Of a stretch of 64,000 nucleotides of DNA, positions 8,592-57,609 are shown one piece after another (position 1 is the first letter of the stretch; each line of letters opens with the position of its first letter). Under the pieces are notes generated by a model. The model did no database searches, was not told the origin of the DNA, and worked only from the letters and a program-made list of their open reading frames with translations. Origin of the DNA: Aphelocoma coerulescens (taxonomy: Eukaryota > Chordata > Aves > Passeriformes > Corvidae); contig NW_027184063.1 of NCBI RefSeq assembly GCF_041296385.1, positions 1,736,001-1,800,000 on the forward strand, in the 5' to 3' direction. A program made the translations under genes and the position numbers.

Positions 8592-8867
8592 TCAGGGTGG
8601 CCGGGGCGGGGTCCCCCCCGCGGGCCGGAAGAGCCGCCAGGCCCCGCGGCAGATGAGGCCGAACCAGTAGAGCTGCGGGGCCAGCAGGGCGGCGGCGGCC
8701 GCGTTGTAGGACGGGGGCAGCGCGGCCGGGACGCGCAGCAGCGCCAGCCCCCGCTGCCGCCCGTAGGCCCAGTACAGGTACGGGAAGAGCAGCACGCGGC
8801 AGCCCAGGAAGGTCACCAGCAGCGCCAGCCCGTTGAGCTTGTGCAGCGCCGTGTGCTGGCGCCGGAA
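8592..8867 (-). CDS. TLCD3B: TLCD3B exon 5, coding part, with stop
   Basis: 91 codons plus the stop, residues 206-296 ([13 protein letters not shown] to the C-terminal GGTPPRPP). It holds the last TLC helices, [15 protein letters not shown] and [15 protein letters not shown]. The acceptor is CCGCAG, ending at 8868. A poly-C run and the minisatellite of the presumed 3' UTR lie just beyond the stop. Confidence 0.92.
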   Translation of the reverse strand, partial: FRRQHTALHKLNGLALLVTFLGCRVLLFPYLYWAYGRQRGLALLRVPAALPPSYNAAAAALLAPQLYWFGLICRGAWRLFRPAGGTPPRPP

Positions 8868-11800
8868 CTGCGGGCACAGAGAGGGGACACAGCGGGGGCG
8901 GGGACGTGGTTATGGGGTCTGCGGGGGGTGGGGAACACAGGGAGGGGTCAAAGGGTGCGGTGGGAGGAGGATGAAGGGGGGAAAGGGTGGTGGTGGCATC
9001 TCGGGGGGGTTTGGGAGGAACCATTGAGTGGTGGGAAAGGGGATCTCAATGTGGTTATGGGGTCTACAAGGGTTGGGGAATCCAAGGAGATGTCAAAGGG
9101 TGCGGTGGGAGGAGGATGAAGGGGGGAAATGGTGGTGGTGGCATCTCGGGGGGGTTTGGGAGGAACCGGTTGAGAGGTGGGAAAGGGGACCCCGATGTGG
9201 TTGTGGGGTCTCTGGGGGTTGAGGGCACAGGGAAACCCTAAAAGGGTCCGTGGGGTGGCCACGGGGTGAAGGAACCGTGGTGGTCGCATCTCGGGGGGGT
9301 TTGGGGGAGGAACCGGTTGAGAGGTGGGAAAGGGGACCCCAATGTGGTTATGGGGTCTGCGGGGGGTGGGGAACACAGGGAGGGGTCAAAGGGTGCGGTG
9401 GGAGGAGGATGAAGGGGGGAAAAGGGTGGTGGTGGCATCTCAGGGGGGTTTGGGAGGAACCATTGAGTGGTGGGAAAGGGGATCTCAATGTGGTTCTGGG
9501 GTCTACAAGGGTTGGGGAATCCAAGGAGATGTCAAAGGGTGCGGTGGGAGGAGAATAAAGGGGGGAAATGGTGGTGGTGGCATCTCGGGGGGGTTTGGGA
9601 GGAACCAAATGGGGGTGGGAAAGGGGATCTCGATGTGGTTCTGGGGTCTCTGGGGGCTGAGGGCACAGGGAAACCCTAAAAGGGTCCGTGGGGTGGCCAT
9701 GGGGTGAAGGAACCGTGGTGGTCGCATCTCAAGGGGGTTTGGGGGAGGAACCAAATGGGGATGGGAAAGGGGACCTCGATGTGGTTCTGGGGTCTCTGGG
9801 GGTCGGGGAAGCCAAGGAGATGTCAAAGGGTGCGGTGGGAGGAGAATGAAGGGGGGAAATGGTGGTGGTCGCATCTCAGGGGGTTTGGAAGGGGACAATG
9901 GGGACACTCTGGAGGGGACCCCGATGTGGTTGTGGGGTGTCTGAGGGCTGAGGGCACAGGGAAACCCTAAAAGGGTCCGCGGGGTGGCCATGGGGTGAAG
10001 GAACCGTGGTGGTGGCATCTCGGGGGGGTTTGGGGGGGGACAAGGAAGGACCCCCGGCTGAGGACCCCAAAGGTGCTATGGGGTCTCCGGGCTGGGATGG
10101 ACACGGGGAGACCCCAAAAAGGTTTTTGGGGTGGAGGAGGAGGGGGGGAAAGGTGGTGGTGGCATCTCGGGGGGGTTTGGGGGCGACAATGGGGACACTC
10201 CGGAAGGGACCCCGAGGTGGTTCTGGGGGCTGGGGAGGTTTGGAGGGAATTTCTGGGGAATTTGGGGGTTTTTGGAGGAATTTGGGGGGAGAATTTGGGG
10301 GTTTGGGGGGATTTTGGGTTTTTTGGGGGGAGTTTGGGGTTTTTGGGGGATTTTGGGGTTTTTGGGGGGATTTTCTGGGATTTTGGGGGAGGTTTTGGGG
10401 CCTTTCCCGGTTTTGGGGGCTTTTTTTGGGATTTTGGGGAATTTGGGGATTTTTGGGGTCTCACCTCGGGGTTTGGGGGGATTTTTTCATTTTCTGGGGG
10501 ATTTTGGGGGGATTTTTTGGGATTTTGGAATTTTTGGGGTCTGGGGATTTTTTGGGATATTTTTGGGATATTTGGAGGGGATTTTGGGGTCTCCTCTGAG
10601 TTTTTAGGGGATTTTGGGGATATTTTGTGGCATTTTTATGGGATTTTTGCATTTTTTGTGGGATTTTTTCTGGTTTTGTGGGATTTTGGGGGATTTTGGA
10701 TTTTTTGGGGTATTGGGATTTTTTGGGGGATTTTTGGGGATATTTTTGGGATATTTGAGGGGATTTCGGGGTCTCCTCTAAGTTTTTGGGGGTCTTTGGG
10801 GACAATCTGTGGGATTTTAATGGGATTTTCGCATTTTTTGTGGGATTTTTTCAGGTTTTTGGGGGATTTTGGGGGGATTTTTGGGGGTTTCGGAATTTTG
10901 GGGATTTTGGGATTTTTGGGGATATTTGGAGGGGATTTCGGGGTCTCCTCTAAGTTTTTGGAGGGATTTGGGGGATAATTTGTGGCATTTTTATGGGACT
11001 TTCCCATTTTTGTGGGATTTTTTTATTTGTTTTTGGGGGATTTTGGATTTTTTGGGGTCTGCGGATTTTTTGGGGGATTTTTGGGGATATTTTTGGGATA
11101 TTTGGAGGGGATTTCGGGGTCTCCTCTAAGTTTTTGGGGGGGTTTGGGGACATTTTGTGGGATTTTTATGGGATTTTCTCATTTCTTGGCCATTTTTGGG
11201 GCGATTTGGGAATTTTTTGGGATTTGGGGCCATTTGGGGCCATCTGGGGCCATCTGGGGCCGTTTGGGGCCATCTCCCCAGGGTGAGGACCTTGCCCAGG
11301 CCCACGAGGGGATTTTGGGGTGGATTTGGGGTGGATTTCTCTGGGATTTTTTCCCAACTTTTGTGGGATTTGCCCCATTTTGAGGGGGATTTTTTGGGAT
11401 TTGGGGCCATTTGGGGCCATTTGGGGCCACCTGGGGCCATCTCACCAGGGTGAGGACCTTGCCCAGGCCCACGAGGGGGTTTTGGGGTGGATTTGGGGTG
11501 GATTTTTCTGGGATTTTCCCCAATTTTTGTGGGATTTGCCCCATTTGGGGGGGATTTTTTGGGATTTGGGGCCATTTGGGGCCATTTGGGGCCATCTGGG
11601 GCCATTTGGGGCCATCTGGGGCCATCTTTGGCCATCTGGGGCCATCTCACCAGGATGAGGACCTTGCCCAGGCCCACGAGGGGGTTTTGGGGTGGAGTTT
11701 GGGGTGGAGTTTGGGGTGGATTTGGGGTGGATTTTCCCCAATTTTTTTGGGATTTGCCCCATTTGGGGGGGGGATTTTTTGGGATTTGTGGCCATTTGTG

Positions 11801-56852: not shown

Positions 56853-57597
56853 CCCCTGCCCCCTGCCCGCTGACCCCTGCCCACCACTGACCCCTGCCCC
56901 CTGCCCGCTGACCAGTGCCCACTGCCCGCTGACCCCTGCCCTGTGCCCGCTGACCACTGCCCTGTGCCCACTGACCAGTGCCCTGTGCCCGCTGACCCCT
57001 GCCCCCTGCCCGCTGACCACTGCCCACCACTGACCCCTGCCCACTGCCCGCTGACCAGTGCCCTGTGCCTACTGACCCCTGCCCTGTGCCCGCTGACCCC
57101 TGCCCACTGCCCGCTGACCAGTGCCCTGTGCCCACTGACCGCTGACCAGTGCCCGCTGACCCCTGCCCACCACTGACCCCTGCCCTGTGCCCACTGACCC
57201 GTGCCCACTGCCCGCTGACCCCTGCCCTGTGCCCACTGACCCCTGCCCACCACTGACCCCTGCCCTGTGCCCACTGACCCCTGCCCGCTGACCAGTGCCC
57301 TGTGCCCACTGACCCCTGCCCACTGCCCGCTGACCAGTGCCCCCTGCCCACTGCCCTGTGCCCACTGACCACTGCCCTGTGCCCACTGACTACTGCCCCC
57401 TGACCGCTGACCAGTGCCCACTGACTACTGCCCCCTGACCGCTGACCAGTGCCCGCTGCCCACCGCTGACCCCTGCCCTGTGCCCACTGACCAGTGCCCA
57501 CTGCCCCCTGCCCACTGCCCGCGCCGTGGCCACGCCCACCCGGCCAGGCCCCGCCCCCTCCCCTCCCCCCCCCAGCAATAAAAAGGTCGCGGATGAA
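56853..57597 (+). other. ALDOA: ALDOA 3' UTR made of a minisatellite
   Basis: About 0.74 kb from the stop codon to just past the AATAAA. Almost all of it is a tandem array of 20-45 bp units built from TGACCCCTGCCC and TGCCCACTGACCAGTG. Only the last 80 bases are non-repetitive. The cleavage site is not visible and the end is approximate. Confidence 0.6.
57577..57582 (+). other. ALDOA: Canonical polyadenylation signal of ALDOA
   Basis: AATAAA in the context CCCAGCAATAAAAAGG, 725 bp after the ALDOA stop codon. It is the first canonical signal downstream and precedes a G/T-rich stretch (GGGGGGGCTTTTTTGGG), as expected of a downstream element. Confidence 0.8.
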
Positions 57598-57609
57598 CCC
57601 AGGAGGCTC

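Follow-up and report, generated by a model that had tools for sequence, protein, structure and literature searches.

Exon stuttering in ALDOA, TLCD3B and neighbouring genes of a likely avian dot microchromosome

In five neighbouring genes, among them ALDOA and TLCD3B, repeat units of the introns cross 16 of 60 exon edges, and the units carry with them the splice site together with 14–66 nt of coding sequence. The pattern in ALDOA and TLCD3B is a further case of a known phenomenon, exon stuttering, in another genome. We give a probability of roughly 0.8 to the reading that this is exon stuttering on a likely avian dot microchromosome, in which neutral arrays spill from the introns into exons by way of microhomology. 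The new elements are the further genome, a distance profile that speaks against nucleation at exon edges, a signal at the breakpoints and a signal in the codon positions.

The window, i.e., the whole stretch of 64,000 nucleotides analysed here, comprises bases 1,736,001–1,800,000 of contig NW_027184063.1 (1,955,990 bases) in an assembly of 1.33 Gb. It is largely G+C rich, and its gene content and architecture, judged from the sequence, look like those of an avian dot microchromosome. We located coding exons through tblastn searches with human protein queries and checked splice sites and frames by eye, which gave eight exons for ALDOA (plus strand) and five for TLCD3B (minus strand). The joined frames of ALDOA, TLCD3B and PPP4C are open, the coding region being intact despite the copies; moreover, comparison of the ALDOA and TLCD3B frames with Pfam recovers the aldolase and TLC families, and comparison with the PDB recovers aldolase A. 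PPP4C, whose exon numbers are as defined in this analysis, starts 540 bases to the right of the window. Further to the right lies a gene whose product contains Pfam HSA and SNF2 domains and which we take to be SRCAP (SRCAP-like below), while an Ig-type gene lies to the left. The 60 edges comprise 36 from ALDOA, TLCD3B and PPP4C and 24 from the SRCAP-like and Ig-type genes; the exons of the latter two were set by eye from unique islands, some of them may be missing, and four undefinable edges were dropped before the count of 24. MAPK3, YPEL3, CORO1A, KCTD13 and TAOK2, as well as parts of DOC2A and TBX6, gave no match in the 264 kb searched (E ≤ 1e-4). Within the introns of ALDOA, TLCD3B and PPP4C, 92–95% of 25-mers are repeated locally. 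G4 motifs cover 2.3 to 5.9 times as much of the introns of these three genes as of their Markov-shuffled versions, a figure that is inflated by the repeats and does not address the mechanism.

An earlier note on this DNA had named seven exon edges in ALDOA and TLCD3B, and all seven carry the stated copies (13 at the TLCD3B exon 3 acceptor; Table 1), with the intact exon, as described there, at one end of every copy series. Of the 22 coding-exon edges that face an intron in these two genes, seven thus bear copies, copy numbers being those of the assembly. That the units reach into the exon also holds, but the range of 12–61 nt had to be adjusted: the usual depth is 14–66 nt, and the deepest single copy extends 67 nt. 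The donor GT is kept in 12/12 copies of ALDOA exon 2 and in two of the three copies of TLCD3B exon 4, and the AG in 14/14 copies of the ALDOA exon 7 acceptor. The TLCD3B exon 1 donor is represented by one lone copy outside any array, which scores 42.1 bits, exactly the published threshold. Looser matches to the ALDOA exon 7 donor are present beyond its two copies.

Table 1. Intact exons of TLCD3B and ALDOA and their partial copies (positions within the window).
Feature	Positions	Strand	Basis
TLCD3B exon 1, coding portion (5' end uncertain)	22571..22674	-	tblastn, frame
TLCD3B exon 1, single copy of last 25 nt + GT	21444..21470	-	
TLCD3B exon 3, intact	12812..13028	-	tblastn, frame
TLCD3B exon 3, acceptor + first 13-14 nt, 13 copies (under the published 20-nt cut-off)	13225..15799	-	
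TLCD3B exon 4, intact	11851..11946	-	tblastn, frame
TLCD3B exon 4, exon parts of 3 copies, last 29-34 nt	11279..11684	-	
ALDOA exon 2 (the first with coding sequence), intact; GT of the donor at 37023	36906..37022	+	tblastn, frame
ALDOA exon 2, last 59-67 nt + donor, 12 copies, spacing 145-209 bp	37101..39117	+	
ALDOA exon 7, acceptor + first 43-46 nt, 14 copies, spacing 58-70 bp	50662..51513	+	
ALDOA exon 7, intact	51538..51712	+	tblastn, frame
ALDOA exon 7, last 15-19 nt + donor, 2 copies, 64 bp apart	51758..51842	+	
ALDOA exon 8, intact	54886..55085	+	tblastn, frame
ALDOA exon 8, last 46 nt + donor, 3 copies	55379..56296	+	

With the published screen settings (blastn-short, at least 20 nt and at least 42.1 bits; PMC12954441), 5 of the 22 edges of ALDOA and TLCD3B pass; the ALDOA exon 7 donor and the TLCD3B exon 3 acceptor miss the screen because their exon part is shorter than 20 nt. 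PPP4C adds five captured edges (the exon 4 donor, the acceptors of exons 5, 6 and 7, and the exon 7 donor), with 11 copies at the exon 5 acceptor. Over the three genes, 10/36 edges pass, which involve 9/18 introns, and all matches lie within 0–4 nt of the exon edge; when the 18 introns were shuffled (one shuffle each), none of the 36 edge tests returned a match of at least 20 nt. The SRCAP-like gene has three captured edges with 30, 17 and 13 copies and the Ig-type gene one captured edge with one copy, corresponding to 3/24 edges under the strict and 4/24 under the looser rule. The latter, which asks for 10 or more exon nt that take in the edge and a score of 30 bits or more, yields the 16/60 edges of the five genes, i.e., 8/30 donors and 8/30 acceptors, three of them with a usual depth below 20 nt (14, 15 and 18). 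The strict captures fall inside the published ranges (exon part of 20–187 bp, 1–44 copies). None of the 14 edges of the ohnolog ALDOC (contig C20) is copied, in the one ohnolog pair compared. ALDOC and ALDOA have equal exon lengths in 7/8 exons; the introns of ALDOC measure 73–476 bp (1,282 bp in total, 5% repetitive) and those of ALDOA 960–5510 bp (18,847 bp in total, 94% repetitive), and with an intron total of only 1.3 kb ALDOC offers less room for copies. A single ALDOA was found in the assembly and thus no second ALDOA haplotype for comparison. Exon stuttering as published goes with intron lengths that vary within a species; here, a contig pair with EIF4A1 differs at two of three introns.

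The earlier note knew of no named description of such a pattern; a published name exists. Hron et al. (2026; PMC12954441) described sequence stuttering on chicken dot chromosomes and called it exon stuttering where parts of exons are involved. The parts of that paper considered here give a total of 236 introns from 115 genes; dot chromosomes account for 190 of these introns, among 5,572 annotated dot introns; the splice donor or acceptor is included in the copies, intron length varies between birds, and the authors offer a mechanism as speculation only. Its main text mentions ALDOA once, as a hidden muscle gene, does not mention TLCD3B and does not contain the word "microhomology". Within the open-licence PubMed Central literature, no other paper uses the term exon stuttering, and among the matches listed for sequence stuttering or dot chromosomes, "sequence stuttering" is found in this paper alone; for microhomology in tandem repeats of microchromosome introns, titles and the beginnings of abstracts showed nothing on the subject. 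As far as these parts of the paper go, our cases resemble exon stuttering in that the adjacent intron, filled with repeats, contains many copies of a lateral exon part with its donor or acceptor, the exon stays intact, the copies are strictly local and the ohnolog lacks them. They differ in belonging to a genome other than chicken and in frequency, 9/18 introns of three genes here vs. 190/5,572 chicken dot introns, although the gene sets are not comparable. For the breakpoint words, the distance profile and the codon-position pattern reported below, we found no counterpart in the same parts of the text. Intron gain by tandem genomic duplication, as outlined in part of the text on the potato RdRp gene (PMC4974935), likewise involves a tandem duplication carrying exon sequence; there a new intron arises, whereas here an existing intron lengthens and the gene structure is unchanged.

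Our further analyses showed statistically that the units tend to end, on the exon side, at a short word of which the adjoining array already contains many occurrences. The k-letter word at the exon-side end of the copies was counted over the intron concerned, exon copies excluded, and ranked against all other exon positions 10–100 nt from the edge; the modal depth of each capture was used, except at the PPP4C exon 7 donor (modal depth 18–20), where the deepest copies (57 nt) were taken. The mean rank over the 16 captures was 0.217 for k = 4 and 0.221 for k = 5, as compared with 0.48–0.49 under a null of random breakpoints with chance alignment extension, and the observed value was reached in 0/4000 simulations (for k = 3 and k = 6, P = 0.00025). 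A second control, directed at distance from the edge, exchanged the depths between captures without an extension step and gave 0/5000 for k = 4, 5 and 6; a first version with 12 captures gave P ≤ 0.001 for the same word lengths. The test was conceived after the first junctions had been seen. The strongest case is the PPP4C exon 5 acceptor, whose word CAGGT occurs 126 times in the array, while CACCC at the ALDOA exon 7 donor occurs 77 times and GGACA at the ALDOA exon 8 donor 48 times. Overall, the 5-nt word is found in the array at least nine times in 9/16 captures, 5 and 7 times in two, and 0–2 times in five, namely the ALDOA exon 7 acceptor, the TLCD3B exon 3 acceptor, the ALDOA exon 2 donor and the captures labelled S3 and S4. 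Hence, the breakpoint signal is not universal, and this counts against our main explanation. At the ALDOA exon 2 donor, a shorter match, CTGG, is visible by eye. The excess of breakpoint words suggests microhomology-guided slippage or unequal exchange, two routes that these data do not distinguish. Minisatellites may be born from chance short direct repeats. The arrays described here are similar in that their unit ends sit at short repeats, but differ in that the short repeat is an exon word matching the motif of a pre-existing array, and in that the array grows into a coding exon.

We postulate that tandem duplications arise throughout the introns by replication slippage, template switching or unequal exchange, probably primed by microhomology. 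Units with one end in the intron and the other just inside the exon would survive because the mRNA remains unchanged, and units inside or spanning an exon would be removed by selection, as their absence suggests. The exon edge would then be the place where neutral arrays run out, rather than where they begin, and the copied donors and acceptors would be decoys that the gene tolerates; they are probably passed over for want of a complete exon with a second splice site to pair with. One common local process fits the cases, in keeping with the shared mechanism proposed earlier.

The concentration of variation at third codon positions is not predicted by neutral copies and counts against this main explanation. 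Among the 599 covered exon sites, 18 at the first, 12 at the second and 32 at the third codon position vary in at least one copy; permutation within base and CpG class gives an expectation of 20.2 at position 3 (P = 0.0002), and permutation within capture and class one of 21.5 (0/5000). The distinct changes comprise 31 synonymous and 30 non-synonymous ones, where 28–37% synonymous would be expected under several mutation weights (p 0.0002 to 0.018). This test was exploratory and unplanned, and we give it modest weight. CpG mutation alone was considered as the cause and found insufficient; other contexts remain. The excess may reflect either re-sampling of the exon as a master copy, exon–array conversion, or a context-dependent mutation bias. 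The first two amount to a lasting exchange in which the exon is re-captured as master copy or converts the copies, which would then carry its synonymous history; we regard this as possible, though on balance unlikely. It is favoured by the third-position excess (32 of 62 variable sites), by synonymous changes above expectation, and by lower divergence in the exon part than in the 25 nt of intron beside it (12/16 captures, p = 0.025), a comparison of little weight, being biased because local alignment trims the exon part. Besides the exploratory nature of the test and a possible contribution of context-dependent mutation beyond CpG, the lack of a clear identity gradient along the arrays argues against such exchange. 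Moreover, re-capture predicts a synonymous excess among shared changes, yet by hand count the segregating changes common to several copies are 8 synonymous and 10 not, and those in single copies 18 and 14, respectively. Among changes fixed in every copy (5 and 6), the synonymous excess is not significant. A lasting exchange in both directions seems to us rather unlikely; in it, microhomology would let arrays take hold of the ends of exons, copying of the exon would recur, and former synonymous states preserved in the array might return as variants to the coding edge.

Exon edges might instead be preferred starting points of arrays, some property of the splice junction nucleating slippage, as the earlier note had assumed. 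Every copy found with the published settings in three genes lies 0–4 nt from an edge, and the ALDOA exon 2 border resembles, by eye, the motif filling intron 2; however, an edge position is expected for any unit that begins in the intron. For the 60 edges, we recorded at each distance the share whose 25-mer recurs locally with no more than 5 mismatches. On the intron side this share is 93–95% at 150–300 nt (0.95 at −300), 0.85 at −100 and 0.60 at −20; it is 0.27 at the junction, 0.14 at +30 nt and 0.04 at +60, and 25-mers centred at least 70 nt inside the exon have no local copy (0/53 edges at +70). A shuffled control for the 36-edge profile was zero at every distance. The fall from intron to exon is monotone, with no peak at the edge: units begin in the intron and extend some tens of nt into the exon, and no captured unit spans a whole exon, both in line with the earlier note. 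With local copies at 93–95% in the intron vs. 27% at the junction, the profile speaks against a start of the arrays at exon edges; over the 60 edges, capture is rarer there than within the intron, an outcome that the earlier note had itself named as refuting its proposal. Progressive capture from the exon outwards was likewise rejected: in 10/11 arrays (at least 4 copies each) identity to the exon does not change significantly with distance, and in one, the SRCAP capture S8, it declines nominally (p = 0.03); the weighted mean rho over the 11 arrays is −0.14, and two arrays of 4 copies have rho −0.80 (p = 0.20). The same result also speaks against edge nucleation, which we judge improbable. Exon edges are not hotspots; the arrays fill the introns and spill over the border.

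The splice dinucleotide (GT or AG) is kept in 139/141 copies, as would be expected if the copied sites were retained for a function, e.g., damping or regulating splicing. We find this very improbable, since the copies are not independent and their exon part differs by a median of 3.6%, so that most would keep the dinucleotide anyway; furthermore, 11/14 copies of the ALDOA exon 7 acceptor would shift the frame if used (arithmetic on unit starts). At this exon, the acceptor series has 15 members with near-identical flanks, of which the final one alone is followed by the complete exon. Given 14 near-identical decoys before the real acceptor, the choice of site can hardly depend on acceptor sequence alone, and exon definition is the likely reason why the real one is chosen.

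That the copies were invented or multiplied by assembly in a hard region is extremely improbable: dot chromosomes are indeed difficult to assemble and the copy numbers given here come from the assembly alone, but the copies differ individually, unit lengths vary, the pattern recurs in five genes, and raw nanopore reads support it for one chicken gene, PHF8, according to the considered parts of Hron et al. (2026; PMC12954441).

We herein extend a very recently described phenomenon to another genome. Its mechanism, left open by Hron et al. (2026), gains a testable lead, namely breakpoints at words common to the exon and the array, and ALDOA exon 7 provides a natural test of splice-site choice. 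If exon and array do exchange sequence, the arrays would be a source of mutation at exon ends.

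Beyond the window, exon ends are repeated together with their splice sites in adjoining introns of further genes. To the right, 5 of the 14 edges of PPP4C are copied, and its exon 5 acceptor is present in 11 copies carrying 65 nt of exon; three edges of the SRCAP-like gene are copied 30, 17 and 13 times. The receptor-like gene to the left, which shows four Ig-like exons to the eye and Pfam Ig matches, has a single copy at one edge. Across the captured edges of the window and of stretches L025-L036 flanking it, the differences between exon and intronic copy cluster at third codon positions, where 32 of the 62 variable sites lie.

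Features outside the window (C643, contig NW_027184063.1; C341 and C121, other contigs of the same assembly)
Feature	Coordinates	Strand	Remarks
Immunoglobulin-superfamily receptor-like gene	C643:1719022-1732408	minus	L025-L026; left of TLCD3B
PPP4C, copied exon edges	C643:1800540-1825243		L027-L029; right of window
SRCAP-like exons	C643:1853436-1898248		L032-L036; Pfam HSA and SNF2 domains
EIF4A1	C341:20671-37393		EIF4A1 partly in L050, L051
EIF4A1	C121:238611-256725		as above

Between the two EIF4A1 contigs, exon-to-exon distance differs by about 10% in two of three introns (4.1 kb compared), as would be the pattern of two haplotypes or of a recent duplicate.

Repeat architecture changes markedly along the chromosome near C643:1714000: the left 78 kb of the stretch examined, from 1636001 to about that point, is mostly non-repetitive locally, and array-filled sequence follows. 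In ALDOA (window positions 36906-39300), the short motif filling intron 2 resembles, by eye, the exon 2 end and donor region, a likeness suggesting that this border itself may have seeded the array.
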